From: Actinopolyspora halophila DSM 43834
Lineage (GTDB): Bacteria; Actinomycetota; Actinomycetes; Mycobacteriales; Pseudonocardiaceae
Direction of reading: 5' to 3'
NCBI RefSeq assembly: GCF_000371785.1
Contig: NZ_AQUI01000002.1
Coordinates: 3,203,276 to 3,267,275 of the forward strand
DNA length: 64,000 nt
The notes beneath the pieces are model-generated. The model was not told where the DNA came from, made no database searches, and saw nothing but the letters and a program-made list of their open reading frames with translations. Shown here piece by piece: positions 31,760-48,720 of this stretch. Position 1 is the first letter of the stretch. Each line of letters opens with the position of its first letter. Made by a program: the position numbers and the translations under genes.

Positions 31760-32545
31760 TCACCCCGCGCGCTGCCACCGCTCGAACCAGTCGGCAGCGG
31801 CGCGCAGCGGCACCGAGACGGGATCGATGGCCGGGTACCAGGCACGTTCCCACTCCAGCGAGATCCACCCCGACCACGACTGCAACAAGCGCCCGCACTC
31901 GGCGAGCGGGACATCCCCCTCACCCGGCGGGACCGGTGTCCAGGAATCCGCCCTCCGCGCGTCCTTGATCTGGAAATAACCGAGGTAGTCGCCCAGCAGG
32001 TTCCGGGTCTCCGTCGGGGACTCCCCCGTGCGCCACGGGTGCAGCGCGTCCCACAGCACGGCCACGGTCTCCGGCGCACCGAACGGCTCCACCAACCGGC
32101 GCGCCAGCCCGCCCGTGGGGTGCGAGTCGTGGGTCTCGACGAGCAACGTGACACCCTGCCGCTCCAGATCGGGCAGCACGGCACCGATCCGCTCCCGAGC
32201 GGGACCGTCCGCACCGGACTCCCCACCCGGGAAAACCCGCACCGCGGGCGCGCCGATCAACCCGGCCAGCTCGACGAGGGAACGCAGCTCCGCGATCGGA
32301 GGTTCGTCCGGGCCCGGCGCGCACACCTTGACGTAGCCCGCCAGGCACGCCACCTCGAGCCCCTCCCCCTCGAGCAGCCTGCGCGCCTCGGAGACCTCCC
32401 GAGGCGTCATCCCCAGCCGAACCTCCTCGTCCGGATGCACCCGCAGCTCCACACCGTGGCAACCGTGCTCCCGCGCGACCCGCGCGGCCTCCCGCACCGG
32501 TGTGCCCGGCATCCCGAGCGTGCTCACCGCGAACTTCCAACTCAT
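31760..32545 (-). CDS. Sugar-phosphate isomerase/epimerase family TIM-barrel protein
   Basis: Xylose-isomerase-like TIM barrel (261 aa). Metal positions: VTLLVETHDSHPTGG (Glu), VAVLWDALHPWRTGE (Asp, His), YLGYFQIKDARRADS (Lys in place of the common His) and WISLEWERAWYPAIDP (Glu). The N-terminus is KFAVSTLGMPGTPVREAARV. It has its own start (ATG 32545, with GGTGAGGGCTCC upstream) and lies 116 bases after the galactanase gene on the same strand. The substrate is unknown; in this sugar locus an isomerase or epimerase for an imported monosaccharide is likely. Confidence 0.83.
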   Translation of the reverse strand: MSWKFAVSTLGMPGTPVREAARVAREHGCHGVELRVHPDEEVRLGMTPREVSEARRLLEGEGLEVACLAGYVKVCAPGPDEPPIAELRSLVELAGLIGAPAVRVFPGGESGADGPARERIGAVLPDLERQGVTLLVETHDSHPTGGLARRLVEPFGAPETVAVLWDALHPWRTGESPTETRNLLGDYLGYFQIKDARRADSWTPVPPGEGDVPLAECGRLLQSWSGWISLEWERAWYPAIDPVSVPLRAAADWFERWQRAG

Positions 32546-32661
32546 GGAGCCCTCACCTCACTCATTCCCGGACAGCGCCCGCGGACGCGCGAGCGACACA
32601 CGGGACCGAACCGTTCGCGCGATCCCGGACAGCCGGCCCGCGCCGGACCACCGCACCACAC

Positions 32662-34131
32662 TCACACCGCGGCGCGCCGGAACCGCTGCCAGGCGGCACC
32701 GGAGCAGGTGTACTGGATCAGACGGGCACCGTCGGCAGTGGACTCGTCGGCCACGTCCAGGCACTTGCCGGAGTGCCGGGCGGTGAAGGTGACCGCCCCG
32801 CCGCCGGAGTCACTCACCCGCCACTGCTGCCCCTGCCCGGAGCCGCACCGCTGCTGGACCACGGCCGCACCGTCTCCTGTGGAGGCACCCTCCACGGCCA
32901 GGCACATCGAACTGTGCCGGGTGACCAGCCGGACGTAGTCACCACCGGCCCCCTCCAGCCAGAACCGCTGGTTGCCGCCGCCGTTGCAGGGGTACTGCGC
33001 CAACTGCTCGCCCGCGAGCTGGGACCTCGCGGGAACGTCCACGCACTTGCCGGAGTGCCGGGCGGTCAGGGTCTCGTAGGGCCCACCGCTCGTTCCGAGA
33101 GTGCCCGCCGCGGTGTCGACGGTCAGTTCCGGCGCCCAGTCCATCCGGAGGGTGCGGTCGTCGGGGAAACGCAGCGGCAACCACACGTAGCGCGAGTCGT
33201 TGACCGGCCCGCCCCAGGCGCCCGCCCAGCGGTCACCGAGGTAGAGGTAGGAGGTGGCCCCGGTGCCCTGGATCGGCAGCACCCAGGCGGTCTGCGACCC
33301 GTAGGCGGTGGAGCCGCCCACGTCCCGCATCCCGCTCCAGCCGCCGTCGAGACTGGTCGAGGTAGCGTACTGCTGCTGATTGGGATCCCAGCCCGTGGCC
33401 CCGGACGTGAGCATGAAGTAGACGCCGTCGCGCTTGAACAGCGCCGGGGCCTCGCGGTGACCCCCGGGCCACGGGTTGGCCACCAGGCTCTCCACCGCCG
33501 TGTAGTCCTCGGTGAGCCGGTAGATGTGCAGATCCAGGTTCTCGTTGGCGGCCGAGGCCATGTAGCCGGTGCCGTCGTCATCGACGAAGACCGTGAGGTC
33601 ACGGGACATGTTTCCCAGCGGCCGGAAACTGCCCTGCCAGCTGTAGTCCCCGTCGACGGTGTCGGCCACGGCCACGGCCGCGCGGGCCTGGCTGTAGTCC
33701 TGGTCGTTCTCCTTGTGCATCCACATGACGAACTGGCCGGTCGACTCGTTGTACACCACCTTCGGCCGCTCGATGTTGGCGCTTTCCAGCTCCGGGGCGG
33801 AGGAGGCGCTCAGCACGTGATTGCGGAACTGCCAGTGCTTCAGATCGGTCGAGCGGTACACCGAGACGTGCCCGAAGGAGTCGTCCGCGGCGCGGTTCTC
33901 CCCGAACCAGTAGTAGTAGCCGTCGACCTCGATGACGCCTCCGCCGTGCGCGTGCACCGGCTCGCCGTTCGGATCGGTGAACTGGGTGCCGTTCCGGACG
34001 GTGACGGGATCCGCCTGCGCCGCCGGGACCACGAGCACGGTGGCGCCGAGACTCAGGCACGCGGCCGCCACCAGCAACCAGAGACCGCGCGCACCCCTTC
34101 TCCGTGATCCGCGCCGTGCTGCCAGGGACAT
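32662..34131 (-). CDS. Secreted GH43 glycosidase with C-terminal CBM13, probable exo-beta-1,3-galactanase
   Basis: Secreted enzyme (489 aa). A signal peptide (basic start, then LWLLVAAACLSLGATVLVVP and AQA) is followed by a five-bladed GH43 domain. This domain has HAHGGGVIEVDGYYYWFGEN, LESANIERPKVVYNESTGQF with VMWMHKEN, DLTVFVDDDGTGYM, and HREAPALFKRDGVYFMLTSG, the Glu of which is the usual acid. The ANIERPKV and MHKEN pattern is that of GH43 subfamily 24 exo-beta-1,3-galactanases. The last 135 residues form a ricin-type CBM13 with three ARHSGKCLDV-like repeats. ATG 34131 with GGAAGGAG is preferred over GTG 34146. Family function suggests it trims the beta-1,3-galactan backbone of arabinogalactan. 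Confidence 0.87.
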   Translation of the reverse strand: MSLAARRGSRRRGARGLWLLVAAACLSLGATVLVVPAAQADPVTVRNGTQFTDPNGEPVHAHGGGVIEVDGYYYWFGENRAADDSFGHVSVYRSTDLKHWQFRNHVLSASSAPELESANIERPKVVYNESTGQFVMWMHKENDQDYSQARAAVAVADTVDGDYSWQGSFRPLGNMSRDLTVFVDDDGTGYMASAANENLDLHIYRLTEDYTAVESLVANPWPGGHREAPALFKRDGVYFMLTSGATGWDPNQQQYATSTSLDGGWSGMRDVGGSTAYGSQTAWVLPIQGTGATSYLYLGDRWAGAWGGPVNDSRYVWLPLRFPDDRTLRMDWAPELTVDTAAGTLGTSGGPYETLTARHSGKCVDVPARSQLAGEQLAQYPCNGGGNQRFWLEGAGGDYVRLVTRHSSMCLAVEGASTGDGAAVVQQRCGSGQGQQWRVSDSGGGAVTFTARHSGKCLDVADESTADGARLIQYTCSGAAWQRFRRAAV

Positions 34132-34159
34132 GACGACTCCTTCCACTGTGGAACTCCGT

Positions 34160-34190
34160 GGCCCCGCCGGGCCGACGGTCCGGCGGGGCC
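34160..34190 (-). terminator. Hairpin between the GH5 and GH43-CBM13 genes
   Basis: GGCCCCGCCGG and CCGGCGGGGCC pair perfectly (11 bp, 9-base loop), 83 bases after the GH5 stop and 29 bases before the next start. It may separate the two genes or attenuate read-through. Confidence 0.6.
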
Positions 34191-34272
34191 TGGTGAGACG
34201 GCGAGGCGGAGCGCGGAAAGTGCCTGGCGCGGGCTCGCCCCCGCGCTCCGTGCCCGGCAGCTCGTCAGCCCG

Positions 34273-35466
34273 TCACCGGCCCGCCGCCGGAGTTGAGGAG
34301 CGGTGCTCGCCTGCCGCGGGAGCCGTGTGGCCCGCGCCGTCCCAGGCGTGGCGGAGCCGCTCGATCATGCTGTCGTTGCGCACCCGCAACGACAGGTCGG
34401 TGCCGCTGCCCTCCAGGGCGTAGAGGGAGTACCAGTCGTAGTCGGGCCGGTAGGTGTGCTTGCCGCCCAGGGCGGGCCAGTAGACCGCCCCCATGTCGTG
34501 GGCGCGGACGGCGTCGGTGGCCGCGCGGATGTAGCGGACGAAGTTGTCCGTGCTGTCGGCCGCGCCGTAGTTCCTGCCGTCGTCCGTCGGGGCGCCGAAC
34601 TCGTCCAGCACGGTGCGGGAACCGCAGTCGCCGATCCGGGAGTCGAACAGCTCCCGCCACTGGTCGTAGCTCATCGAGTCGAACTGGAAGGCGTACAGGT
34701 GCAGCGACAGGTACGTCCCGGCGAGACGGCTGTCGTCGCACACGGAGGTGACGTCACCGTTGTAGCCGTGCCCGCTGACGAAGATCCGCTTCCGGGGAAC
34801 CCACGAGCGGTCGGCGATCCACTGGGCGGCCACGTCGGCCCACTCGGCGGCGCTGTAGCCGTGGGGCTCGTTCATCGGCTCGAAGTAGACCCGGCTGTCG
34901 AACCGCCAGCGGGAGGCGACCGCGTCCCACATCGCGTTGAAGGCCTCCGTGTCGGCGATCCGCCCGTTCGAGGACGCCCCGTCCGCCCAGTAGGACAGGA
35001 TCACCTTGAAGCCGTTCTCCGTGGCGGCGTCGATGGCCCCGGCGTAGGCGTCACCCCACTCCGTGCCGGGAACGGAATGAGTGTTGATCGGCAGCCGAAC
35101 GGTGTTGGCCCCGCTCGTCTCCCGGAACTCCTCGTACACGGCGGCTGCCTTGGCCTTGACCGTGGCGTAGTCGTCGGAGACGTTCAGTCCTTCGGGAACG
35201 ACGGGGCCGTCGACGAAGTTGTCCTCGGGCCTGGCCCAGTTCACCCCCTGGAAATCGGCGGCCGAGTGGGCCCGTCCCACCGCCTGCCCCGCGGACTGCC
35301 CCGCGGGGCGCTCCGCCGCGGTCGCCGAGGTGTACGACAACGCGGAGAACGGCACGGCGAGAAGCGCGGAGAGCGTGGCCGCCAGAACACGGCGACGGCG
35401 ACGCTCCCGAGCGGGGCCGGTGGGACGCCCCCGCTCGGGGGAGCGCTTGGCGAGCAACGGAATCAT
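34273..35466 (-). CDS. Secreted glycoside hydrolase family 5 protein
   Basis: Secreted clan GH-A hydrolase (397 aa). After a twin-basic start region (RERRRRRVLAATLSALLAVP) the (beta/alpha)8 domain begins FQGVNWARPEDNFVDGPVVP. RLPINTHS, SRVYFEPMNEPHGYSAAEW (acid/base Glu in NEP), LSLHLYAFQF and RTVLDEFGAP (nucleophile Glu) are in proper order. ATG 35466 with GGGGA is preferred; a TTG at 35478 would add four residues. The subfamily and polysaccharide target cannot be set by eye. The upstream DNA carries a copy of the ABC-operon control segment, so it belongs to the same regulon. Confidence 0.87.
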   Translation of the reverse strand: MIPLLAKRSPERGRPTGPARERRRRRVLAATLSALLAVPFSALSYTSATAAERPAGQSAGQAVGRAHSAADFQGVNWARPEDNFVDGPVVPEGLNVSDDYATVKAKAAAVYEEFRETSGANTVRLPINTHSVPGTEWGDAYAGAIDAATENGFKVILSYWADGASSNGRIADTEAFNAMWDAVASRWRFDSRVYFEPMNEPHGYSAAEWADVAAQWIADRSWVPRKRIFVSGHGYNGDVTSVCDDSRLAGTYLSLHLYAFQFDSMSYDQWRELFDSRIGDCGSRTVLDEFGAPTDDGRNYGAADSTDNFVRYIRAATDAVRAHDMGAVYWPALGGKHTYRPDYDWYSLYALEGSGTDLSLRVRNDSMIERLRHAWDGAGHTAPAAGEHRSSTPAAGR

Positions 35467-35640
35467 GGTTTTCCCCAAGGTCGGTGATGTCCGGGACTGT
35501 GCTGATCAGGCTGGTGACCAGTTGTCGAGAGGTCGGTTCGCAGGAACGCTCACGGCCACGGCACGGGGAAAGCTTCCCGGGAGTACCGAACCAGGAGTGA
35601 TCGGCGAACCGGGAAAAGTCCGGAAACTGTGGACACCGCA

Positions 35641-35766
35641 CTTCGTCCATGCAGCCTCCCACCGCCTTCCGTGCCCGGGTGACGACAGTCACTTCACCGC
35701 GCGACACAGTTCCAAGTCAACACAATCACACCCAAACGATCACAATCGATCAGAAACGAAACCGCC
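35641..35766 (-). repeat. Regulatory repeat, copy A (upstream of GH5)
   Basis: About 126 bases, roughly 80 percent identical by eye to 47357-47481. The two best kept blocks read, on the minus strand, GTTTCGTTTCTGATCGATTG followed by TGA, and GATTGTGTTGACT. GTGACTGTC(G/A)TCACCC is also kept. It even keeps GGGAGG-N4-ATGGACGAAG, the ribosome-binding site and first codons of the lipoprotein gene. TTGACT may serve as a -35 box. It is oriented toward GH5. Confidence 0.75.
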
Positions 35767-35839
35767 CCAGGCGACCGAGAGAAGAAGCACGGCAACACAC
35801 GAATGCCCAGCGGCCCCGACGACTGCGAAACCGAATCGG

Positions 35840-35851
35840 TAAAACGTTTTA
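35840..35851. promoter_or_regulatory. LacI-type operator 1 before the BNR_4 gene
   Basis: TAAAACGTTTTA is a perfect 12-bp palindrome with the central CG typical of LacI/CcpA-type sites, about 226 bases upstream of ATG 36078. It lies 145 bases from the second site, a distance compatible with looping. Confidence 0.65.
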
Positions 35852-35945
35852 TGAATAGCGTCGCGGATCGCGATGCGGACGTGGCGCCACTCCACGTGAC
35901 GACTTGATGAAGCCCGGAGCCATCTCTTCACGACCTCGGCGCCTC

Positions 35946-35974
35946 TTGACTGGACGCTGTGACTCACTTAACTT
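35946..35974 (+). promoter_or_regulatory. Sigma-70-type promoter of the BNR_4 gene
   Basis: TTGACT at 35946-35951 and TAACTT at 35969-35974 are separated by 17 bases. The second LacI-type operator starts 11 bases after the -10 box, covering the expected start of transcription. Confidence 0.6.
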
Positions 35975-35984
35975 CAGCACATCC

Positions 35985-35996
35985 TAAAACGTTTCA
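35985..35996. promoter_or_regulatory. LacI-type operator 2 at the BNR_4 promoter
   Basis: TAAAACGTTTCA is the same motif as at 35840-35851 with one half-site change. It sits at the probable +1, so a bound repressor would block transcription. Confidence 0.65.
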
Positions 35997-36077
35997 ACAC
36001 AGGAGGACGCATGCGCACGTGCTGGGAAGCCACATCCGAGTTACCGCGCTCAGCACCGCAGGAAAGGTCCGTCTGAC

Positions 36078-37514
36078 ATGCGCAGAGCCCTACTCACGAC
36101 CCTGCTGATCACCGCGGCGCTCGTGATGCCCACCAACGCTGCGGCCGATCCGCCGGACTTCGCCCAGAACCCCGGAAACGCCGAGCCCGACGCGACCCTG
36201 CTGTCGGACACGGTGCTCGACCAGTCCGCGCTGTACTTCGTCTCCTACGACGGAATCGTCAACAACAACTCGTTCCAGCAGGACGCCATCCGCACCTACG
36301 CCGGCTACCAGTACGCCGCCTGGTACACGGACAGCCGCAACGCCGTCGTGGGCCGCAAACCGTTGCACGGCAACGGCGGGTGGCAGACCGTGACGTTGCC
36401 GCACAAGCTCAGCGTCGACGACTCGCACAACGTCATCTCCATCGGGATCTCGCCCGCGGACGGCCGCCTGCACGTCGCGATGGACACGCACAACAGCCGA
36501 ATCCACTACGTCAGGTCCACCGAAGGGCTGGTCTCCCGACCCGCTGCCCACCCCTGGACCTCCGAGATGTTCGGCGAGGTCCGGCGCACGCTGGGCGACG
36601 AACGACTCGGGGCGATGACCTACCCGCGATTCATCGCGACTCCGCAGGGCAAGCTCCAGTTCAGCTACCGCACCGGGGGTTCGGGCAACGGCGTCAACGA
36701 ACTGGCCGAGTACGCCGACGGCTCCTGGGGCAAGCTCGGAGGCTGGACCTCGGCGACCGGAGCGTGGACCGCCCCGAACGGGGAGGTGTCGAACACCCGC
36801 AACATGTACCTGCACGGGTTGACCTACGACGACAACGGGCGGCTGCACGCGACCTTCACCTGGCGCGAAGGCGACCGGTCGGTGCTGTGCGACCCGGGTG
36901 GACTGACCAACCACGACACCGGCTACGTCTACAGCGACGACCAGGGCCGGACCTGGCACAACGGTGCGGGCGAGACCGTCGGCGTCACCGATCGAGACCC
37001 GGTGGCCGTGGACTCCCCGGGGATCGTGGCCGACCCGCTCGGTCCCAACCACGGGCTCATGAACCAGGAAAGCCAGGCGGTCGACTCCACCGACACGCCG
37101 CACGCGGTGATCAGCTACGTGCCCGGCCGGTTCACCCAGTGCGTGACGGACTACTCCGAGCAGCGCACCGACCACGGTCGCACGTTCCACCTCGTCCGTG
37201 GTGACGACGGCGACTGGACCAAACGGGAGGTCCCCGTCCCGCCGAACTCCACCCAGCGGACACAGCTGGTCTTCGACCAGGACGACAACGCCTACCTCGT
37301 CATGCCGAAGGGCAGGATCGTGGCGGCCAGCGCAGCCAGCGACTGGACCGACTGGACCGTGGTGTTCGACCGCCCCGACATGAACGCCTTCGGCGAGGTC
37401 AACGTGGACACCTTCCGGCTGGCGGCCGACGGTGTGCTGTCCGTGCTGTACCAGGAAGCGTCGACGGGAACGACCCCCTCACCCGTGCACGTCGCCGACT
37501 TCCGGCTCGGCTGA
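36078..37514 (+). CDS. Secreted BNR_4-repeat beta-propeller protein (possible rhamnosyl-glucuronate lyase or rhamnosidase)
   Basis: Secreted 478-aa protein with a clear signal peptide (MRRALLTTLLITAALVMPTN, cleaved near AAADPPD). The body is a BNR_4-type propeller: AGYQYAAWYTDSRNAVVGRK, DDSHNVISIGISPADGRLHV, TYPRFIATPQGKLQFSYRTG and MYLHGLTYDDNGRLHATFTW end each blade region. BNR_4 proteins include CAZy families GH145 and PL42, which remove L-rhamnose linked to glucuronic acid at the tips of arabinogalactan and gum arabic. This fits the neighbouring galactanase and GH154-like gene, but I cannot assign catalytic residues. It has its own LacI-type operators. Confidence 0.75.
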   Translation: MRRALLTTLLITAALVMPTNAAADPPDFAQNPGNAEPDATLLSDTVLDQSALYFVSYDGIVNNNSFQQDAIRTYAGYQYAAWYTDSRNAVVGRKPLHGNGGWQTVTLPHKLSVDDSHNVISIGISPADGRLHVAMDTHNSRIHYVRSTEGLVSRPAAHPWTSEMFGEVRRTLGDERLGAMTYPRFIATPQGKLQFSYRTGGSGNGVNELAEYADGSWGKLGGWTSATGAWTAPNGEVSNTRNMYLHGLTYDDNGRLHATFTWREGDRSVLCDPGGLTNHDTGYVYSDDQGRTWHNGAGETVGVTDRDPVAVDSPGIVADPLGPNHGLMNQESQAVDSTDTPHAVISYVPGRFTQCVTDYSEQRTDHGRTFHLVRGDDGDWTKREVPVPPNSTQRTQLVFDQDDNAYLVMPKGRIVAASAASDWTDWTVVFDRPDMNAFGEVNVDTFRLAADGVLSVLYQEASTGTTPSPVHVADFRLG

Positions 37515-37525
37515 GCCCCTTTACT

Positions 37526-37624: not shown

Positions 37625-38884
37625 TCAGACGGGCTCGATCCCGGAAAGCGTGGGCTCTACCGGGCGAATGGCGCCGTCCTCGGCGTGACGCAGGCGGTCG
37701 ATGGTGACTTCGCGGTGCGTGCCGTCCCCGTCCGGGATCGCGTGGCGGTGGTAGACGATGAACCACTCGCCGGTTTCGGGGTCCCGGACCGTCGAGTGAT
37801 GTCCGGTGCCGTAGATCCCGAGCGACGGCCTTTTGGTGAGAATCTCACCCCGATTGCGCATACCGTCCATCATGGGACTGGTGCCGGTCGCGTAACCGAC
37901 GCGGTAGTTCTCGCTGCGGGTGTCGTCGATGGACCAGCTCAAGTAGTAGATGCCGGCGCGCTCGTGCATGAACAGCCCCTCGCGGAACCCGTCCAGCCCG
38001 GTCAGGTGCTTCACCTCGGAGTGGTCGAACGAGACCATGTCGTCGTTCAGCGGCACCACGTAGGCGTGCCCGTTGCCCCAGTACAGATAGGACTGACCGT
38101 CGTCGGTGAACACGGCCGGATCGATGGCCTGCCCGCCGTGCGGATTGGCCGAGACCAGCGGCTCACCCGAATCGACGAACGGCCCGGTGGGGCTGTCCGC
38201 CACGGCGACACCGATCCTGGTGTCGGCGGTGAAGTAGAAGTAGTACTTGCCGTTCTTCTCGATCGCCGCGGGCGCCCAGGCTCGCCCGTCGGCCCAGGAG
38301 ACATCCGGTCCGAGGTCGAGGATCGTGTCGTGCTCGGTCCAGTCGACCAGGTTCGTGCTCGACCAGGTCTTGAACGAGTCACTGCCCCACCCCGGGAAAC
38401 CGTCCGTGGTGGCGTAGATGTAGTAGGTGTCGCCGAAACGCACGATGTTCGGATCGGCGTTGTAACCGGGCAGGCTGGGACTGTTCATCTCCACCGCGCG
38501 CACCGTCCAGGTCCTGGATTCGTGGTCCCCACCGCGCACTTCGTACTCCACCGGACTGGTGAAGTCCTGGGTACTGCCATTGCCGGGACGGATGGTCGAA
38601 CGCTCGGCGATGTCGAACTCCGGTCGCAGCTTGCGCAGCTCCGTACCGGGCTCGACGGGCAGCACCACCGTGCCCTGATCCCCGTCGATGAGCGGCTCGG
38701 TCTTCAGCGAGTCCAGCCGCACACCGGTGATCCTCGTCGCGTTGCCGTCGTGCCCGGACACCTCGTCGGTCTCGGCCGAAACCGCGGTCGGCGCGAGCAA
38801 CGAGACGTCCAGCAGCAGTGCCGAACCCAGCGCCAGGCACAACGGGACCAGTCGGAAAACGCGTGCGCGATGTTGTCTCACCAT
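37625..38884 (-). CDS. Secreted GH43-type glycosidase with N-terminal Ig-like domain
   Basis: Secreted 419-aa protein. The signal sequence (RVFRLVPLCLALGSALLLDV) is followed by a beta-sandwich of about 90 residues of the DUF5018 kind. The GH43-like propeller follows: LPGYNADPNIVRFGDTYYIY (catalytic Asp in the ADP), WAPAAIEKNGKYYFYFTADT, GGQAIDPAVFTDDGQSYLYW (pKa-modulating Asp), DGFREGLFMHERAGIYYLSW (acid Glu) and GTGHHSTVRDPETGEWFIVY with HRH. ATG 38884 follows GGAGGAG. It is the last gene of the big importer/glycosidase operon, 97 bases after GH42. An arabinofuranosidase or galactosidase role on side chains is likely. Confidence 0.86.
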   Translation of the reverse strand: MVRQHRARVFRLVPLCLALGSALLLDVSLLAPTAVSAETDEVSGHDGNATRITGVRLDSLKTEPLIDGDQGTVVLPVEPGTELRKLRPEFDIAERSTIRPGNGSTQDFTSPVEYEVRGGDHESRTWTVRAVEMNSPSLPGYNADPNIVRFGDTYYIYATTDGFPGWGSDSFKTWSSTNLVDWTEHDTILDLGPDVSWADGRAWAPAAIEKNGKYYFYFTADTRIGVAVADSPTGPFVDSGEPLVSANPHGGQAIDPAVFTDDGQSYLYWGNGHAYVVPLNDDMVSFDHSEVKHLTGLDGFREGLFMHERAGIYYLSWSIDDTRSENYRVGYATGTSPMMDGMRNRGEILTKRPSLGIYGTGHHSTVRDPETGEWFIVYHRHAIPDGDGTHREVTIDRLRHAEDGAIRPVEPTLSGIEPV

Positions 38885-41033: not shown

Positions 41034-41139
41034 GACAACTCCTGTTCGGTCGGGACGGATCAGCGTGCTCGCTCGGTGGGACGATCCCTCGTCCCGAGAC
41101 GTCATCGCCGCCGGAGGGCGAGCGCATCGTTCGGGCGGA

Positions 41140-43173
41140 TCACCGCGCTCCCCGTGATCGTTGTTCTCCGTCGCCCGGTGGTGCCCGGCGCGAGCCGGGG
41201 CACGAGGTTCCGGGCAGCTCGACCGTGGTGCGCACCCCGTCGGGCCACTCCACGGTCACCTCGTGTCCACCTTCCCCGTCGGGGTGCGCCAGCACGGTGG
41301 GATCCACCGGTGGCGCTCCCCCGCGGTCGAGCAGCACACCCCCGGCCAGCACCTCGCCCACCGGAACACCGTCGGTGGCCAGCCACGGGACGGCCGTCCA
41401 CGCGGCGAGCGGACTCGTGCCGAAGTCCGTGGCGAGCCCGCAACCGGTGAAACCACGAATGCCGGACACCAGCGAGCGCAGCTCGGAAGTCTCGAACGAC
41501 ACCCGCGTCCGCCGCGTACCGTCCGGAGCCGCGGGTTCGCCGTCGGAGGCGACCGGCCAGCCGCCCATCCGGACGAAACAGCCCGGAGCGAGCGCGTCCC
41601 ATCCGGCGGCGTCCACCCGAACCAACCGCACCTCCGCGCCCGCGCGCAGCACCGAAGCGACCGTCAGCACCGGCCCTTCGACGACCGCACCGCGCCTGCC
41701 GTACCCGTGGTCGGCCGTCTCGTCGGCACGCGCATCGATCCAGCAGGCCCGGCCTCGGGTGGCCGCCGTCAGGACCTCACCGTCGGCTTCGCGCACGTAC
41801 AGCCGCTCGAACCCGGTCCGGTGCGTGGCGTTACCGTCCGCGTCGACGATCACCACCGTGTTGTCCACGGGATCGGCGACGGTGGCTCCGGTCAACGGGG
41901 GCACCGTCGCCGTGGAGTAACCGATCCTGGCGTACAGCGCGGAATCGGACCTGCGCTCACCGGGCTCGGCGTGATCGGTGCCGTGGTTGAGCACGATCAC
42001 GACACCGTCGGCGCGGCGATGGGCCACCAACCACCCCGGGGCGGCCACGGCCCGGCAATGATCGGAACTCTCGCTGGGCAGCGGTTCTTCGACCGCGTTC
42101 CAGACGGGGTGGTCCGCGGGCAGGGCCAGCCCGAGCATCCCCTTGCTCGCCCAGTACGGCGACCCCGCGCCGGAATAGGCCTGCCGCATTCCCGGCCAGG
42201 AGTCGTGCCAGCCCAGAGTCAGCAGACCGTCCGAGTCGGGAACTCCGTGGTCCGTGAAATGTCGCAGGACACCGCTGCACGCCCGACGCACCAGTCCCGG
42301 AGACCGGCCTCCGCGTCCGGTGATGGCACCGACCCAGAACGGTGCCGCGGCGGCGAAGCGGTAGATCAGGCTGCGCCCCTGCAACAGCGGTGAACCGTCG
42401 GAGCCCACGAGATGGACCAGGTCGTCCAGGTAGCGGGCCAGGTCGGCGGACCACGTGCGGTAGGTCCCGACCGGGCACAACGAACCGACGACGTCGAACC
42501 AGTGCGTCCACAGCATCGGGTACAGGTGCAGCGCCCAACCGACGTAGTGGTCGAAGGCCCGCTCCGGCCCGTCGCTGTACCAGCCGTCGCCGCGCCGCAG
42601 CGAGGCGTGCACGGCGAGGTCCTCCTCGATGTCGGCCGCGGACCAGGGCCCGCCCACCTCACGCAGGAAGGACTCCACGACGACGCGGAACCACACCCAG
42701 TTGATGGGCGGGTACGGCTGTCCAACCACAGTGGACAACCAGTCGACGACCCGTTGACGCACGCGGTCGTCGAGCTCGTCCCACAGCCACCGCCGCGTGA
42801 TCTGCAGGATCAGCGCGATCGAGGCCGCCTCGACCTTGGCCTGCCCCAACTCGTCCGGACGGGGCCAGCGTTCCGGCGAAGCCGGATCCGTGCCCGCGGC
42901 GAGTCCCTCGGCGTAGCGCTCCAGCGAACCGGTCGGATCACGCCCCTGCTCACCGACCACCCGGAACCCCTGCAGCAGGAACGTGCGCGCGAAGCCCTCG
43001 AGACCGTCCGCGCGCGACCCGTTCGCGCTGACCGGTCCCGGCAGGTCGAAACGCGCCCCCAGCGGGGAGCGATACCGCTGGACCGCGTGCAGCAGCCCGT
43101 CGGCCGTGCTCGCCCAGTGCTCTCGCGTCCAGCCCGTGTACGGGCTCAGCTCACGGTCCTCCACCGGTGTCAC
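41140..43173 (-). CDS. DUF2264 protein, GH154-like (probable beta-glucuronidase)
   Basis: Large cytosolic protein (677 aa), no signal peptide. The N-terminal alpha-barrel part has GLEGFARTFLLQGFRVVGEQ, PINWVWFRVVVESFLREVGG, RRGDGWYSDGPERAFDHYVG and HWFDVVG, and GWHDSWPGMRQAYSGAGSPY with WASKGMLGLALP; these are DUF2264 hallmarks. A beta-rich C-terminal half follows. DUF2264 is now the CAZy family GH154, whose characterised members release glucuronic acid from arabinogalactan side chains. The start is GTG 43173, overlapping the dehydrogenase stop as GTGA. Glucuronate released here would feed the uxaC module. Confidence 0.85.
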   Translation of the reverse strand: MTPVEDRELSPYTGWTREHWASTADGLLHAVQRYRSPLGARFDLPGPVSANGSRADGLEGFARTFLLQGFRVVGEQGRDPTGSLERYAEGLAAGTDPASPERWPRPDELGQAKVEAASIALILQITRRWLWDELDDRVRQRVVDWLSTVVGQPYPPINWVWFRVVVESFLREVGGPWSAADIEEDLAVHASLRRGDGWYSDGPERAFDHYVGWALHLYPMLWTHWFDVVGSLCPVGTYRTWSADLARYLDDLVHLVGSDGSPLLQGRSLIYRFAAAAPFWVGAITGRGGRSPGLVRRACSGVLRHFTDHGVPDSDGLLTLGWHDSWPGMRQAYSGAGSPYWASKGMLGLALPADHPVWNAVEEPLPSESSDHCRAVAAPGWLVAHRRADGVVIVLNHGTDHAEPGERRSDSALYARIGYSTATVPPLTGATVADPVDNTVVIVDADGNATHRTGFERLYVREADGEVLTAATRGRACWIDARADETADHGYGRRGAVVEGPVLTVASVLRAGAEVRLVRVDAAGWDALAPGCFVRMGGWPVASDGEPAAPDGTRRTRVSFETSELRSLVSGIRGFTGCGLATDFGTSPLAAWTAVPWLATDGVPVGEVLAGGVLLDRGGAPPVDPTVLAHPDGEGGHEVTVEWPDGVRTTVELPGTSCPGSRRAPPGDGEQRSRGAR

Positions 43174-44168
43174 GCCTGTACCTCCAGACTCCGCCGCGTC
43201 ACGGGGGCACGGGCCGGAAGCCCCGAGACGTAGCGATGCAACTCGTCCAGGGCCGCCGCGCTCATGCGCCGGGTCTCCTCACCGAGCGAACCCGCGACGT
43301 GCGGGGTCAGAACGACGTTGGACAAGCCGTGCAACGCGGAATCGGCGGGCAACGGCTCCGGATCGGTGACGTCGAGAATCGCGTAGACGTCCCGGCGGCA
43401 ACACGCCCGCTCCAGAGCGGCGGTGTCCACCAGAGCCCCCCGGGCCGTGTTGATGAGCACGGCACCGGGCGGCAGCGCCTCCAACTCGGACTCACCGATC
43501 ATCCCCCGGGTCCGCGGCAGCAGCGGCGCGTGCAGACTCAGCACGTCGGCCTGCGGCAGCGCCTGCTCCAACGTCGCCGGCACCGCACCGGCCGCGGTGA
43601 TCTCAGCCGGGTCGGCCACGGGATCGACCACCAGGATCCTGCTCGAGTCGAAATCCCGGAGCAGACCGACCACGCGCCTGCCGACCCGCGAGAACCCCAC
43701 CACCACGACGGTCTGCTCGTCGAGCATGCGCACCTGCCGATCACCGTCCCAGGGGTGCGAACGGCCGAGCAGGAACGGCACCTTCTTGCCCGACCAGAGG
43801 ACCGCGGCGAGGGTGTAACGCGCCACCGGCTCCGCGTTGACATCGGCAGCGGTCGTGACCAGCACTTCCCGGTCGAAGACCGCCTCGCTGACGTGTCCCC
43901 GCACACTGCCAGCGGCGTGCAGCACCGCCCGCAGTTCGGGAGCCGCCGCCATGACGTCCGCGTCCAGCGGGGGACACCCCCAGGACGTGATCAGCACCTC
44001 CACTTCGGCCAGCCGCCGACGCACCCCGGCCGAACTCAGTTCCGCACTGCTGACGGGATCTCCCAGCGAGGCCAGCTCACGCAAACGATCCATCTCCTGG
44101 CGACCGAACTGGGTGAACAGGGTTTTCCGATCCATCACCAGCAGCGCTTCCGGGCGCTCCGAACTCAT
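43170..44168 (-). CDS. D-isomer 2-hydroxyacid dehydrogenase family protein
   Basis: NAD(P)-dependent dehydrogenase (332 aa). The Rossmann part has QTVVVVGFSRVGRRVVGLLR (GxxxxG form). The catalytic Arg is in LINTARGALVDTAALERA, the Glu in AILDVTDPEPLPADSA and the His in NVVLTPHVAGSLGEETRRMS. ATG 44168 overlaps the ABC permease stop (ATGA) and the stop overlaps DUF2264, so it is embedded in the sugar operon. It could oxidise or reduce a sugar-derived acid. Its substrate is unknown, and the link to DUF2264 is the interesting part. Confidence 0.88.
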   Translation of the reverse strand: MSSERPEALLVMDRKTLFTQFGRQEMDRLRELASLGDPVSSAELSSAGVRRRLAEVEVLITSWGCPPLDADVMAAAPELRAVLHAAGSVRGHVSEAVFDREVLVTTAADVNAEPVARYTLAAVLWSGKKVPFLLGRSHPWDGDRQVRMLDEQTVVVVGFSRVGRRVVGLLRDFDSSRILVVDPVADPAEITAAGAVPATLEQALPQADVLSLHAPLLPRTRGMIGESELEALPPGAVLINTARGALVDTAALERACCRRDVYAILDVTDPEPLPADSALHGLSNVVLTPHVAGSLGEETRRMSAAALDELHRYVSGLPARAPVTRRSLEVQA

Positions 44169-45082
44169 TTCACACTCCCCGCGGTCAAACCGGACCGCCA
44201 TTGTCGTTGCAGCACCAAGAACGCGACGATGATCGGAAGCACGGCGAGCAGCGACCCCGTGATCACCAGGGGGTTGTACTGCGGAAACTGCGACACTCGA
44301 GTGCTCCACTGATACAGCCCCAGACTGAGCGGAAAGAGCCTGGGATCGGTCAACATCACCAGCGGAAGGAAGAAATTGTTCCAGATCTGCACGAACTGGA
44401 AGAGGATGATGGTCACGAATCCGGGGCGCATCATGGGCAGCGCCACCCTGAAGAAGGTCTTCAACTCGCCCGACCCGTCGATGCGCGCCGCCTCGAGCAC
44501 CTCGTCCGGCACCGCGGCCTCGGCGTAGACCCGCGCCAGGTACACCCCGAACGGATTGGTCAGCAACGGCAGGAACACGGCCCAGAACGTGTCGACCAGC
44601 CGGAACTCGGAGGCCATCAGGTACAGCGGCAGCGCCAGGGCCGTCGTGGGCACCAACACCCCGGTCAGGGTCACCGCGAACAGCGTGCGCCGTCCCGGGA
44701 AATCCAACTTGGCGACCGCGTAGCCGCACGCGGTGCAGATCAACGCCCCGAGCACGGCGCCGACACCCGCGTACAACACGGAGTTCCGCGCCCAGGCGAG
44801 GAAAACACCGTCCGCCTCGGAGAACAGGGCACGCAGATTCGCGGGAAGATTCCAATCAGCGAATTCGAACGCCGAGGTCGTGGAGAAGTCACCGAGCGAT
44901 TTCGTCGAGGAGGTGACCAGCCACATCAGGGGAAGTACGCTGTACAGCGCGGCGATCCCCAACATCCCGTGGACCACGGTCCGCGAGGTCCACGGCGAGG
45001 GTTCCTTCCGACCGCGCCGACCACTCCGGCCCGGTGGACCACCGACCGCGGACGTGACGCTGACCGTCGTTGACGCACTCAT
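44165..45082 (-). CDS. ABC sugar transporter permease (MalG type)
   Basis: Inner-membrane permease of a CUT1 sugar importer (305 aa, six helices). The EAA loop reads LEAARIDGSGELKTFFRVAL followed by PMMRPGFV, the surface that contacts the ATPase. WARNSVLYAGVGAVLGALIC and NFFLPLVMLTDPRLFPLSLG are family positions. It overlaps the MalF-type gene by 4 bases. No ATPase gene is in the operon; a shared MsiK-like ATPase elsewhere in the genome is the usual actinomycete solution. Confidence 0.92.
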   Translation of the reverse strand: MSASTTVSVTSAVGGPPGRSGRRGRKEPSPWTSRTVVHGMLGIAALYSVLPLMWLVTSSTKSLGDFSTTSAFEFADWNLPANLRALFSEADGVFLAWARNSVLYAGVGAVLGALICTACGYAVAKLDFPGRRTLFAVTLTGVLVPTTALALPLYLMASEFRLVDTFWAVFLPLLTNPFGVYLARVYAEAAVPDEVLEAARIDGSGELKTFFRVALPMMRPGFVTIILFQFVQIWNNFFLPLVMLTDPRLFPLSLGLYQWSTRVSQFPQYNPLVITGSLLAVLPIIVAFLVLQRQWRSGLTAGSVK

Positions 45083-46014
45083 CGTGACCTCCGGGCGGAA
45101 AACCGCATCACCACGGCCGAGAGCACCGCCGAAACCAGACCGAGCAGCACGGAGGCAGCCGCGGCCCGACCGTAGTCGCCGGCGACGAAGGCCGAGTCGT
45201 AGACGTAGAGGCTGGGGGTCCAGGTGCTGGTTACCGCCCCGGTGAAGCTCTGCAGCACGAGCGGTTCGGTGAACAGCTGCAACGCACCGATGATCGTGAA
45301 CACCAGCCCCACGAACAGGGTGGGTCTGATGGAGGGCAGCTTCACCGACAACGCGGTACGTATCGGCCCCGCACCGTCCACACGGGCCGCCTCCAGCAGC
45401 TCACGGGGAACCGTCCGCAACGCGGTGTAAAAAATGATCATGTTGTAGCCCATCCACTGCCAGGTGGCGATGTTGACCACCGACGGCAGGATGCCGTTCG
45501 CCCCCAGCGGGTCGATCGGAGCGATGGAACTGATCGGGCCGATGTCGGGGCTGTAGAGATACCCCCAGATCAGCCCGGCGATCACTCCGGGAACCGCGTA
45601 GGGCAGGAACACCGCGAGCAACCAGACCTGCTTCAACCGCGCGACCGCGGAGTCGATCAGCAGCGCCACGACCAGCGCACCACCGAGCATCAGCGGCACC
45701 TGGATCACGGCGTACAGCGCGACGTTGCCGACACCGTGCAGAAAATCGGGGTCGGTGACGACATCGGCGTAGTTGCCGAGGGCGACGAAAGCACGGCTGG
45801 GCCCCGAGAAACCCAATCCGCTCAACCGTTCGGTGAACAGACTCAGGTACAACGCGTACGTGACCGGGGCCAGCACCGTACCGATCAGCAGCAGGGCGAA
45901 GGGTGCGCACAACAGCGCCGCCGCGCCACCGAAACGCGGCATCCGCCCCGCCGTGGTTCTGCCGAGCACGGCTCCGCCGCCGGAACGCACACCACCGGAA
46001 GTGCTCCGGCTCAT
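45079..46014 (-). CDS. ABC sugar transporter permease (MalF type)
   Basis: Second CUT1 permease (311 aa, six helices). The EAA loop is ELLEAARVDGAGPIRTALSV followed by KLPSIRPTLFVG. LFTERLSGLGFSGPSRAFVA with LGNYADVV is the usual periplasmic segment, and WQWMGYNMIIFYTALRTVPR precedes the loop. The start ATG 46014 overlaps the binding-protein stop (ATGA). Confidence 0.92.
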   Translation of the reverse strand: MSRSTSGGVRSGGGAVLGRTTAGRMPRFGGAAALLCAPFALLLIGTVLAPVTYALYLSLFTERLSGLGFSGPSRAFVALGNYADVVTDPDFLHGVGNVALYAVIQVPLMLGGALVVALLIDSAVARLKQVWLLAVFLPYAVPGVIAGLIWGYLYSPDIGPISSIAPIDPLGANGILPSVVNIATWQWMGYNMIIFYTALRTVPRELLEAARVDGAGPIRTALSVKLPSIRPTLFVGLVFTIIGALQLFTEPLVLQSFTGAVTSTWTPSLYVYDSAFVAGDYGRAAAASVLLGLVSAVLSAVVMRFSARRSR

Positions 46015-47366
46015 GTCGATCCCCCCTCGATGACCGACAGCCCCGAACCGCGCATGGACCGCACCGAATCGTGCTGGACCCGCTCGATCGCCTCCACCAG
46101 CGTGCTTCCCCCGGCCGCGACCGGGCTGAACCGGTTCTCCAGGGTCGAGAAGAGCCCGAGTGCCGTCGGCCCCCAGGTCCAGTCGGACACCCGACGCACG
46201 GCCTCGTCCAGCACGTCGTAGATGGGCTCGCCGAGGAAGTAGCCGCTCCGGTAGCTCTCCCGGGCCACGGCACGGTTGGGAACGTAGGCTGGCAGCAGTG
46301 TGGTGAACGAAGCGGCGATCCTGGGCACCTCGGGATCGGTGCTGAGCCAGCGCAGGAAGGTCAACGCCGCTTCGGGCACGTCACTGTCGGCCGAGACCGC
46401 GAACGCGCTGCCGCCCTGCATGCCGGTCGAGGGAACTCCGTCCCAGGTCGGCAACGTCGTCACCGCCCACCGCCCCGAATCCTGCGGGATGGACTTGTTC
46501 AACGTTCCGGCGCTCCACGCCGCTCCCAGCAGGCTCCACAACCTGCCCTCGTGCATCGACGCGATCCAGTCCTGGGTACCGATTCCGTCGCTGCGCACCA
46601 GGTCCGCGTCGATCAGCTCCTGCCAGTAGCGCGCGGTGCGCACGGTGCCCGCACCGCCGATGTCGACCTCCCAGCTGTCCCCCCGGACCTGCCACCACGG
46701 GTCGCGCGCCTGCCAGGCCATCCCGGCGAAGAACGAACCGTCGTTGAGCGGAAACGTGGTGAACCGAGCCGCCGGATCGATCCGCCGCACCTCTTCGGCG
46801 GTCGTGCGGAACTGTTCCCAGTCGCTCGGCACCGCGAGCCCGTGGGCGTCGAACAGGTCCTTGCGGTAGTACAGGACCATCGGGGCCACGTCGAAGGGGA
46901 CCGCCCACGTCCGGCCGTCCGGCCGGACCGACCGCCACGCCGCGGAGGAGTAGCCGGAGGCGAGATCGGACATGTCCTCGGTGATCTCGCGCAGCCCACC
47001 GCTCGTCAGAACCTGCGGAAGCCCCTGGTACTCGACGTGCATGATGTCCGGCGCGTTGTGCGCGCGGATGGCGTTCGTCTGTTGGGCGTAGCCCCCGGAC
47101 AGTCCACCCGCGAGCACGTTCAGGTCGACGAAGACCTCGCGCTGCGACGCGTTGAAGGCCTCCACGTAGCGGTCCATGCCCGTCAACCAGGACCACATCG
47201 TGACCCTGGTGGCTCCGGAAGCGGCCGTGCGCGAAGCGCACCCGGACAGGGAACCGGCCAACATCGCTCCCGCACCCGCCGCACCCGCCGTGCGCAGCAG
47301 CGTGCGGCGGGAGACGGTCGCCGGCCGTTCACCGGAACGGGGCTCGCCACCTCTCGCTTCGTCCAT
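46011..47366 (-). CDS. Sugar-binding lipoprotein of the ABC importer
   Basis: Extracytoplasmic solute-binding protein, family 1 (451 aa). The N-terminus carries a Tat-type signal (VSRRTLLRTAGAAGAGAMLA) and a lipobox LSGC, so it is probably Tat-exported and lipid-anchored. The fold motifs are TMWSWLTGMDRYVEAFNASQ, AVPFDVAPMVLYYRKDLFDA and GMQGGSAFAVSADSDVPEAA with LTFLRWLS. ATG 47366 follows GGGAGG. It is the first gene of a seven-gene operon (binding protein, two permeases, dehydrogenase, DUF2264, GH42, GH43), transcribed from repeat copy B. The ligand is probably a galactose-rich oligosaccharide. Confidence 0.92.
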   Translation of the reverse strand: MDEARGGEPRSGERPATVSRRTLLRTAGAAGAGAMLAGSLSGCASRTAASGATRVTMWSWLTGMDRYVEAFNASQREVFVDLNVLAGGLSGGYAQQTNAIRAHNAPDIMHVEYQGLPQVLTSGGLREITEDMSDLASGYSSAAWRSVRPDGRTWAVPFDVAPMVLYYRKDLFDAHGLAVPSDWEQFRTTAEEVRRIDPAARFTTFPLNDGSFFAGMAWQARDPWWQVRGDSWEVDIGGAGTVRTARYWQELIDADLVRSDGIGTQDWIASMHEGRLWSLLGAAWSAGTLNKSIPQDSGRWAVTTLPTWDGVPSTGMQGGSAFAVSADSDVPEAALTFLRWLSTDPEVPRIAASFTTLLPAYVPNRAVARESYRSGYFLGEPIYDVLDEAVRRVSDWTWGPTALGLFSTLENRFSPVAAGGSTLVEAIERVQHDSVRSMRGSGLSVIEGGST

Positions 47367-47481
47367 GAAGCCTCCCGCTCTCTCCGTGGCTGGGTGATGA
47401 CAGTCACCTCACCCCGTGGCATAGTTCCGAGTCAACACAATCGCAACCAAGCGTTCACAATCGATCAGAAACGAAACCGCC
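47357..47481 (-). repeat. Regulatory repeat, copy B (upstream of the ABC operon)
   Basis: About 125 bases matching 35641-35766 in the same direction relative to the gene served. It covers the lipoprotein start codon, its ribosome-binding site, a TTGACT box and the fully kept upstream block GTTTCGTTTCTGATCGATTG. It lies in the intergenic region shared with the divergent DeoR/LacI-type regulator, which is the obvious binding protein. Confidence 0.75.
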
Positions 47482-47607
47482 TGCTGTGCGTTCGTGTTGG
47501 ATCCGCCTGCCCGATTCGGACGAACGGGTGCCACCAAACGGCCGGTCCGGCCCGATCGGACGGACGTTCGACGCACTCACCGGCGGTTGGAATCGGAAAA
47601 ACCGACC

Positions 47608-48720
47608 ATGACCCTCTCCGCCGAACGGCAGAAACTCATCCTCGCCACCGTTCGTCAGCACGGCGCCGTCCGGATATCCGACCTCGTCGAGCGCTTGGAG
47701 GTCACAGCCGTGACCGTCCGCCGCGACGTGAAGGAACTGGCCGACCGAGGACTGGTCGCACGCGTCCACGGCGGAATCACCCTGCCGCAGCGCCCCGAGA
47801 ACAATGACCGACCGGGCACCGGCGGCAACTCGGTGGGCGGCTCCACCAGGACCCTGGCCGGCATGGTCACCCCCTCGGTGGAGTACTACTGGCCCGCCGT
47901 GATCAAAGGCGCGCAGGCGACGATGGCCTCCTCCAACGGGAGGCTGGTGCTGCGCGCCTCCTCCTACGACTCCACGGAGGACAGAAGGCAGGTCACCAAA
48001 CTGCTGGAACACGGTGTCCAAGTGATGCTGGTAGCTCCGACGACCACGGGGCACGAAGGTGTCGAGCTGCTCAGATGGCTCGGCTCGCTGCGCGTGCCCG
48101 TCGTGCTGCTGGAACGCCTGCCACCACCCGAGCTCCCCACGCTGGCACTGGACGCAGTCACCTCCGCGCACGACGTGGGAGCGGGGTTGGCGATGCGCCA
48201 CCTGATCACGCTCGGCCACCGAAAACTGGGGATTCTCACCTCCCGGTCCAGCCCCACGAGCAGAATGCTGCGTCGCGGGTGGAAGGAGGCGCTCGACTCG
48301 TTGGGAATCCCCGAGACCGATGACCTCGAGGTCGAGGTCCCCACGTACGGCTCGACCGGGTGGGGCGACGCCTACGACGAGGTGCTGCGCCGCTGCAGCC
48401 GGGAGAACATCACCGGGCTGCTCGTGCACTCCGACCGCGAGGCGGTCGGCATGGTCGAGCGGGCGCGCGATCTCGGCATAGAAGTCCCCGGGGAACTCGC
48501 CGTGCTGGCCTACGACGACGAGATCGCGGCCGCCTCGGACCCACCGCTGACGGCGATACGCCCGCCGAAACACCGCGTCGGGGCGCTCGCGGCCGAACTG
48601 GCGCTGACCAGGACCGTGGAGAACGCCGACCGGCCGGTGCACCGCGTGCAGCTCTGGCCCACCCTGCACGTGCGCGAAACCTGCGGAGCCACCGATAACA
48701 CCGAGTCCCCGGCCGGCTGA
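47608..48720 (+). CDS. Chimeric regulator: DeoR-type HTH with LacI-type sensor domain
   Basis: 370-aa regulator. Residues 1-60 are a DeoR helix-turn-helix (SAERQKLILATVRQHGAVRI, SDLVERLEVTAVTVRRDVKE, LADRGLVARVHGGI). The rest is not the DeoR sensor but a periplasmic-binding LacI/PurR fold (PSVEYYWPAVIKGAQATMAS, DAVTSAHDVGAGLAMRHLIT, LGHRKLGILTSRSSPTS, LLVHSDREAVGMVERARDLG, LAVLAYDDEIAAASDPPLTA). ATG 47608 fits both domains; upstream starts at 47494 lack support. It is divergent from the ABC operon and likely senses the imported sugar and controls repeat copies A and B. Confidence 0.88.
   Translation: MTLSAERQKLILATVRQHGAVRISDLVERLEVTAVTVRRDVKELADRGLVARVHGGITLPQRPENNDRPGTGGNSVGGSTRTLAGMVTPSVEYYWPAVIKGAQATMASSNGRLVLRASSYDSTEDRRQVTKLLEHGVQVMLVAPTTTGHEGVELLRWLGSLRVPVVLLERLPPPELPTLALDAVTSAHDVGAGLAMRHLITLGHRKLGILTSRSSPTSRMLRRGWKEALDSLGIPETDDLEVEVPTYGSTGWGDAYDEVLRRCSRENITGLLVHSDREAVGMVERARDLGIEVPGELAVLAYDDEIAAASDPPLTAIRPPKHRVGALAAELALTRTVENADRPVHRVQLWPTLHVRETCGATDNTESPAG

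Follow-up and report, generated by a model that had tools for sequence, protein, structure and literature searches.

A 64,000-nucleotide stretch of the Actinopolyspora halophila DSM 43834 genome (the window; G000:C2:3203276-3267275, in a 5.35 Mb genome of two contigs and 99.75% completeness) carries at its positions 31760-48720 a gene cluster that we interpret, with a probability of roughly 55%, as an inducible locus for type II arabinogalactan or arabinogalactan proteins (AGPs) with rhamnose-glucuronic acid (Rha-GlcA) tips, in which a D-2-hydroxyacid dehydrogenase (HADH) replaces the GH88-KduD-KduI set. We computed family assignments, catalytic residues, gene overlaps, a shared promoter element, conservation, the lack of a PF07470 match and an either/or distribution in one clade. 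Every family named in an initial annotation of this DNA was found where it had been placed, each above its Pfam cut-off; that list did not include two genes within the span, an AP_endonuc_2 gene and the HADH gene. The arabinogalactan reading given there fits the evidence, as judged by the homology of the GH43-CBM13 protein to exo-β-1,3-galactanase and by the best match of the BNR_4 protein, the gum-arabic Rha-GlcA lyase FoRham1. Altogether, this is a real, conserved and probably co-regulated arabinogalactan-tip locus.

The secreted BNR_4 β-propeller protein (36078-37514, plus strand; PF15892, 293 bits) had been annotated as GH145/PL42-like. By its sequence it is a PL42-type lyase, predicted to act on L-Rha-α-1,4-GlcA, and not a GH145 hydrolase. 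FoRham1 (7esl) ranks first among its PDB matches (E 4.9e-32, residues 61-477, the whole propeller), ahead of GH145-type entries (1.1e-18 to 7.9e-18), PL24 (1.8e-9) and Uly1 of PL25 (3.1e-5). The catalytic residues of FoRham1 and the reassignment of former GH145 members to PL42 are given in the accessible parts of PMC8377490 and PMC10951650. We compared 14 site residues of FoRham1, comprising the Asp83-His85-His105 triad, the Arg166 neutraliser, Tyr150, Tyr202, Arg220 and the Rha-binding residues, and found 13 to be identical, the sole change being Tyr26 to Phe66. The position of the GH145 nucleophile, His48 of BT3686, is occupied by Tyr74, as it is by Tyr34 in FoRham1, and the NCBIfam BT3686 model yields 108 bits against a cut-off of 700. 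Because the lyase site is kept and a Tyr replaces the GH145 catalytic His, the PL42 half of the earlier assignment stands; the GH145 half is ruled out by the His48 position and the scores. An ulvan lyase (PL24/PL25) identity was also rejected, given the low ranking of these families and because a scan of the genes at 31.8-48.7 kb gave no sulfatase. Of 394 genomes of the class, 26 have strong BNR_4 matches (E 1e-60 or better), and 21 of these 26 also encode DUF2264, compared to 63 of the 394 overall (Fisher 3e-14, a value that overstates independence because about half of the 21 genomes belong to one genus).

The two-domain DUF2264 protein (41140-43173, minus strand; PF10022, 363 bits; no signal peptide seen) is predicted to be a dehydratase-type protein, specifically a β-glucuronate dehydratase of the former GH154 family. 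The label GH154-like in the initial annotation was right as to family; the hydrolysis it implied is not sustained, as GH154 is reported to dehydrate GlcA and not to hydrolyse it. According to the available portion of that report (PMC12269599), terminal GlcA is dehydrated both by BcGDH and by BT3677, the founder of GH154, which was also shown to dehydrate methyl-GlcA, the family has no hydrolase-like active site, the described pathway pairs the dehydratase with GH88 or GH105, and a reclassification is proposed. We find that nine of the ten BcGDH residues with inactive Ala mutants are kept in the window protein, and that none of the nine varies across the 57 aligned sequences; the tenth, N176, is Ile157 here and falls at a variable position (N in 30, C in 12, I in 7, T in 6 and S in 2 of the 57). 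The BcGDH positions were matched by eye on the alignment, adding 5 to the chain number (R285, Y289, Y229 and Y354 served as checks), with E74 and R78, which precede the aligned stretch, placed on the weaker basis of an invariant LEGFAR motif. An AlphaFold2 model (pLDDT 91.9, pTM 0.92) comprises an α/α toroid (residues 1-360) and a β domain (370-655). Foldseek with this model returned the GH154/dehydratase entries 8oi4 (E 4.8e-17) and 9o4u (7.6e-16), which are also the PDB matches of the protein, and then two-domain uronate lyases acting on alginate, heparan, chondroitin and hyaluronate, with no GH88/GH105 entry among the best 50 of 77 matches (E up to 0.001). The PL42 protein and the DUF2264 protein should both yield 4,5-unsaturated glucuronate.

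Since the genome has no match to PF07470, a family that we take to include both GH88 and GH105, the unsaturated uronate from PL42 and DUF2264 would be left without a recognised removing enzyme. The same profile was positive in 3 of 14 control genomes, and a profile built from divergent GH88-like proteins (A3) was positive in 10 of 39 genomes, the A. halophila genome not being among them. Across the 65 genomes searched for PF07470 (63 with DUF2264 and two family relatives), 26 had any match, several of them weak, and no match was found in 9 of the 21 genomes with both strong BNR_4 and DUF2264. A GH2 β-glucuronidase was considered for the missing step and rejected: the single PF02836 match scores 779 bits with the LacZ-type model versus 179 bits with the β-glucuronidase model (cut-off 544), and it is also under the LacZ-type cut-off (999), so that its specificity is not fixed by these scores. 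GH79 gave no match in the genome, a zero that is uninformative because no control genome gave a match either.

The HADH gene (43170-44168, minus strand; PF02826, 137.6 bits) is tightly coupled to the DUF2264 gene, with its start ATG overlapping the stop of the preceding permease gene and its stop overlapping the DUF2264 start by 4 nt. Arg232 and His279 are invariant and Glu260 is present in at least 90% of 34 HADH sequences; we take these three to be the catalytic Arg-Glu-His set. Using 83 DUF2264 loci (82 neighbourhoods and the window; HADH called at a phmmer score of at least 60, gaps measured on stop-to-stop frames), we observed HADH near DUF2264 in 37, with a gap of <400 bp in 29, 26 of them on the same strand. 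In 16 loci besides the window, HADH ends at the very base where DUF2264 starts, with start codons chosen by rule (L053, L055, L057, L060, L062, L066, L069, L077, L079, L085, L100, L102, L106, L107, L109 and L110). The HADH of Actinopolyspora righensis is 93% identical to that of the window, and one further locus with both genes, about 4 kb apart, belongs to Microbacterium arabinogalactanolyticum (L144), a species named after the substrate. The reverse search, starting from HADH and covering the best 80 of at least 579 relatives (some stretches end early), found DUF2264 in 44 of the 80 loci, with the two genes adjacent in 25, among them loci from Rhizobium, Rhizobiales and Devosia. GH88 and KduI profiles matched in none of the 80 HADH loci, and the background is low, with no second HADH-family match scoring >60 in 1.56 Mb of HADH-locus stretches.

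Other genes accompany DUF2264 in some of these neighbourhoods. Many loci have a protein of about 650 aa next to DUF2264/HADH (13 of the first set of 81; L050:5748-7700, L079:5776-7776 and 26 more). Its single members match nothing in Pfam or NCBIfam at E 1e-4, its consensus has an HNHND motif reminiscent of heparinase II/III lyases, and it was not seen in the window stretch compared. Eleven loci of one Streptomyces-like genus (L073, L075, L078, L081, L082, L083, L089, L091, L092, L094 and L096) combine DUF2264 with GH43-CBM13 in the absence of HADH; in part of them a GH43, a lyase of PL4 type and a secreted protein of 731 aa without clear family assignment recur, and PF07470 finds nothing in five of the 11 genomes. 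A PfkB kinase adjoining HADH in L090 was dropped as a next pathway step, as it was found in 1 of 81 and 0 of 80 loci.

HADH and the GH88 set occur in an either/or pattern, which weakens outside one clade. Comparison by hand placed PF07470 within about 10 kb of DUF2264 in eight loci (L067, L074, L076, L080, L084, L086, L095 and L097), none of which has HADH. The clade that holds the DUF2264 protein of the window (21 rows, SH-aLRT 100) divides into 15 members with HADH and 6 with a GH88-like gene, with no member having both and none having neither; in two of its members (L072 and L090) HADH is 3.6-4 kb away from DUF2264. GH88-like, KduD and KduI genes are found together in all six GH88-type clade loci, and the other 14 HADH-type clade loci gave no tblastn match to any of them; the references included the KduD of L084 (74-100% identity) and the KduI of L097 (71-100%), both of which pass their NCBIfam cut-offs. 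L090, which lies within the GH88 group and is of the same genus as L074, L086 and L095, has HADH where those three have GH88-KduD-KduI. Fourteen genomes have an HADH-type DUF2264 of this clade; 12 of them, that of A. halophila included, lack a PF07470 match anywhere, the exceptions being G200 (weak) and G209. The two types of DUF2264 protein (15 versus 6 rows) differ at just four positions, none of them at mapped catalytic residues. One is residue 167 (window 42673-42675), near the mapped residues Asn158-Phe162 in sequence, where 13 of 15 HADH-type rows have Glu and all six GH88-type rows have Gln; the Gln looks derived, because BcGDH also has Glu.

The locus consists of four gene runs flanked by two divergent intergenic regions, P1 and P2, with transcript boundaries taken from the order of the genes. 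From P1, the minus-strand run contains the extracellular solute-binding protein of an ATP-binding cassette (ABC) importer (46011-47366; PF13416, 94 bits; twin-arginine signal 18 bits, under its cut-off), two ABC permeases (45079-46014, PF00528 67.5 bits; 44165-45082, PF00528 60 bits), HADH, DUF2264, GH42 and the second GH43, and the plus strand encodes a regulator with a DeoR-type helix-turn-helix and a LacI-type periplasmic-binding sensor (47608-48720, start approximate; PF08220, PF13377). From P2, the minus-strand run contains GH5, GH43-CBM13 and AP_endonuc_2, and PL42 is read in the plus direction. Overlaps of 4 nt (ATGA/GTGA) join binding protein to permease, permease to permease, permease to HADH and HADH to DUF2264; DUF2264 and GH42 are spaced by about 35 bp. 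P1 (47369-47481, between the divergent importer operon and regulator) and P2 (35653-35766, between the divergent GH5 and PL42 genes) each contain a copy of one element, identical in 96 of 114 alignment columns. Both copies hold the same 25-nt core, TCACAATCGATCAGAAACGAAACCG, at 47455-47479 and 35740-35764 (chance expectation in the window 0.00). A 22-nt core allowing up to 3 mismatches has exactly two sites in the 5.35 Mb genome, both at this locus, and a reversed control has none. In A. righensis the element is present at both equivalent sites with 0 and 1 mismatch; it was not found at up to 3 mismatches in the Williamsia locus described below. Because both divergent promoters share the element and A. 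righensis keeps it, the sequences support one locus-specific regulon joining the uptake and secreted-enzyme operons, in line with the earlier description of the locus as coordinated; we infer that the adjacent DeoR/LacI-type protein is the acting factor.

The gene cluster is, judging from comparative sequence, not a chance grouping, because it is conserved in A. righensis (L116) and Williamsia sp. CHRR-6 (L118). The A. righensis stretch has matches to ten window proteins at 91-97% identity, and eight of those ten are matched in Williamsia at 42-75%. GH43-CBM13 is matched over just 99 of 300 residues in A. righensis, where the stretch ends, and AP_endonuc_2 would fall past that end. Nothing in the A. 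righensis stretch matches the second GH43 (37625-38884); GH42 and PL42 lie there with about 80-90 bp between them. DUF2264 and BNR_4 are both missing from two genomes of the same family. At the end of the A. righensis stretch (about 20.0-20.96 kb) the GH43-CBM13 homologue is split over two open frames, possibly owing to a frameshift or an assembly error.

The remaining enzymes of the locus belong to the GH43, GH5, GH42 and AP_endonuc_2 families. The secreted GH43 with a C-terminal ricin-type/CBM13 module (32662-34146, minus strand; GH43_24-type by homology) matches PDB 3vsf, which we take to be the Clostridium thermocellum exo-β-1,3-galactanase, at E 5e-130 over residues 49-490 with the lectin domain included, and 7bys, named galactan 1,3-β-galactosidase, at E 6e-56. 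The second secreted GH43 (minus strand; PF04616, 203 bits) is an α-L-arabinofuranosidase candidate that matches PDB 3qz4, presumably BT3675 (E 3e-74). The secreted GH5 (34273-35478, minus strand, in-frame ATG at about 35466; PF00150, 71.6 bits) has its nearest PDB match at only E 2e-5, and NEP and DEFG motifs are seen in its translation; it is possibly a β-1,6-galactanase. Characterised fungal and bacterial endo-1,6-galactanases belong to GH5_16 or GH30_5 in the part of PMC12751061 available to us. GH42 (38982-41105, minus strand; PF02449, 514 bits) is a predicted β-galactosidase. The AP_endonuc_2 protein (31760-32545, minus strand; 261 aa; PF01261, 101.5 bits) is a xylose-isomerase-like TIM barrel with phmmer homologues in a few other DUF2264 loci (L110, L104 and L055). 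The proposed division into outside and inside enzymes agrees with signal peptides, judged by eye on the translations, on GH43-CBM13, GH5, BNR_4 and the second GH43, and none on GH42 and DUF2264.

The activities, the substrate, the HADH reaction and the identity of the protein cleaving the unsaturated glycosidic bond are conjectural, and the pathway might run as follows. Outside the cell, PL42 would take off the rhamnose cap by β-elimination to leave 4,5-unsaturated GlcA, the exo-β-1,3-galactanase would strip the backbone into decorated 1,6-galacto-oligosaccharides, GH43 would remove arabinofuranose and GH5 would trim galactan. The ABC importer would take in the acidic oligosaccharides; inside, DUF2264 would dehydrate rhamnose-free terminal GlcA to the same unsaturated uronate that PL42 makes and GH42 would remove galactose, with the operons presumably controlled by the two divergent promoters through their common regulatory element. 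In the logic of GH88 and GH105, C5 hydration of an unsaturated uronoside opens the ring to give an α-keto acid, 5-keto-4-deoxyuronate (DEHU). HADH would be a chemically sensible sink for DEHU, because D-2-hydroxyacid dehydrogenases reduce α-keto acids and because it has the Arg-Glu-His set, and by consuming the DEHU formed once the unsaturated uronate opens it could pull the reaction. The candidate for hydration without GH88 is the second domain of DUF2264, in which Tyr414, Tyr419 and Arg516 are invariant in 57 of 57 sequences, and the reduced sugar acid is a possible substrate of AP_endonuc_2. We further propose, tentatively, that DUF2264 and its coupled HADH may form a widespread, undescribed two-enzyme route that removes GlcA caps in Actinomycetota and Rhizobiales, with either the second domain of DUF2264 or another partner hydrating C5 to give DEHU, which HADH would reduce, in place of GH88/GH105, KduI and KduD.

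Several observations weigh against a replacement of the GH88 set by HADH. No unsaturated-uronyl hydrolase is evident among the proteins of the locus. Some 85 kb ahead of the window, at 116 kb from the locus, the genome does encode a KduI that scores 391 bits (cut-off 250) and a KduD-like short-chain dehydrogenase/reductase (328 bits, under its cut-off of 338.85) next to an IclR regulator, and DEHU could therefore be processed without HADH. The HADH family has other settings, because DUF2264 is missing from the covered stretch in 36 of the 80 HADH loci, and 25 of these 36 are from Streptomyces. Conversely, both HADH and PF07470 are missing from the vicinity of DUF2264 in 38 of the 83 loci, and one locus (L230) has DUF2264 with the same importer and regulator types and no HADH. 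The distribution of HADH over loci with and without PF07470 (0 of 8 versus 37 of 73 in the 81-locus set, before two loci were added) has a plain Fisher p of 0.007, which disregards relatedness. Three pairs represent the independent switches, two of them informative (sign test p 0.5), and since such switches are few, the either/or distribution is a pattern and not proof. Outside the clade, the GH88-type loci L076 and L080 lack KduD and KduI at the tblastn threshold, at which the GH88-like reference has no match there either.

Two alternatives concern the uronate step itself. The two-domain DUF2264 protein could be a true β-glucuronidase that sends GlcA into the classical UxaC route, leaving HADH for an unrelated step, an idea favoured by a UxaC glucuronate isomerase in the same window (about 9194-10498) and by the lack of PF07470 in the genome. 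We consider it unlikely: that UxaC gene is about 21 kb off, in a part of the window that also has GH115 and fits glucuronoxylan, the retained dehydratase residues and the listed fold neighbours, which are lyases, point to elimination, and the methyl-GlcA activity of BT3677 in a family with no hydrolase-like active site (PMC12269599, accessible portion) points the same way. Moreover, all six GH88-type clade loci pair DUF2264 with GH88-like, KduD and KduI genes, a pairing that is sensible only after dehydration or lyase action. It is similarly improbable that an unrecognised hydrolase elsewhere removes the unsaturated uronate and that DEHU goes through the KduI and KduD-like proteins of the genome, with HADH an accessory for cofactor balance or a side product. 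The presence of those two genes speaks for this scheme, but neither PF07470 nor the A3 profile finds a hydrolase in the genome, only 1 of 13 other HADH-type clade genomes (G200) has a PF04962 match in the E-value band of confirmed KduI (a band-based call), and the end-to-start junction of HADH and DUF2264 recurs in 16 other loci.

The substrate could also differ from AGP or gum arabic, the locus instead targeting side chains of rhamnogalacturonan I (RG-I) or another uronic-acid polymer. RG-I bears arabinogalactan side chains, and some related DUF2264 loci contain rhamnogalacturonan lyases that are PL4 or PL26-like, family numbers that are partly our assumption. Against this, no pectin lyase, GH28, GH78 or sulfatase is found among the genes scanned at 31.8-48.7 kb, and the PL42 protein matches the gum-arabic Rha-GlcA lyase, with ulvan lyases far lower, and we rate an RG-I or other uronic-acid target as quite improbable.

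The neighbouring genes of the window include further sugar-acid functions. A 3-oxo-tetronate kinase and decarboxylase, a DeoR regulator, a KdgT-family permease and a zinc alcohol dehydrogenase (26096-31249) make up a neighbouring acid-sugar pathway; the 3-oxo-tetronate genes (26-31 kb) were set aside as part of the system, as they form their own gene set. Split transketolase halves, a Dak-type kinase, a GntP permease, a short-chain dehydrogenase/reductase and a second AP_endonuc_2 (15036-22275) appear to be another sugar-acid or polyol set, and GH115 (partial profile match) with UxaC (4726-10552) suggests glucuronoxylan use. Directly adjoining the locus at 49237-50451 is an IS605 OrfB/TnpB-type gene with a Cas12f1-like TNB domain.

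Related systems share parts of this gene set. The BT3674-BT3687 region of Bacteroides thetaiotaomicron, in the sources available, includes the GH43_34 arabinofuranosidase BT3675, the GH154/dehydratase BT3677 and the PL42/GH145 protein BT3686, which presumably share that region with GH43_24 exo-galactanases and a GH105 (BT3687). Bacteroides use SusCD uptake and periplasmic enzymes, whereas the window has an ABC importer and DUF2264 and GH42 proteins without signal peptides; its BNR_4 protein is of the lyase type and not of the His48 hydrolase type of B. thetaiotaomicron, and in place of a PF07470 match there is HADH coupled to DUF2264. In the chondroitin pathway of Bacteroides caccae PUL25, a dehydratase of the same family likewise makes terminal GlcA unsaturated; as far as the accessible text of PMC12269599 goes, BcGDH is single-domain with a GH88 partner, whereas the window protein is two-domain and HADH-coupled in a genome without PF07470. 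The gum-arabic AGP system of Bifidobacterium longum is also actinobacterial and has a GH43_24 exo-β-1,3-galactanase and GH43 arabinofuranosidases, but its limit product is Rha-GlcA-Gal-Gal, a tip that two enzymes of the window are expected to attack (PMC8939339, in part). Streptomyces avermitilis has known exo-β-1,3- and endo-β-1,6-galactanases; the latter is a GH30_5 and the window enzyme a GH5, and the available parts of PMC8424115 describe no PL42/DUF2264/HADH set. The same paper lists fungal GH79 glucuronidases, and its text does not mention GH105 or PL27. FoRham1, in the available description, is alike across the whole propeller and active-site residues but comes from a fungus, Fusarium oxysporum, and differs by the Tyr26 to Phe change among the 14 residues.

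A literature search, with subscription journals mostly outside its reach, found no paper with both GH154 and a hydroxyacid dehydrogenase, and none with DUF2264, and the uronate handling proposed here is possibly a new variant. The locus encodes enzymes aimed at the Rha-GlcA tip, the point where B. longum, another actinobacterium, stops. The 2025 reassignment of GH154 to dehydratases rests, in the accessible part of the report, on a GH88/GH105 partner, and here a dehydrogenase adjoins the dehydratase instead. Because the dehydratase family is said to number >6000 members (PMC12269599, in part), an answer on the HADH-DUF2264 route would change many annotations.

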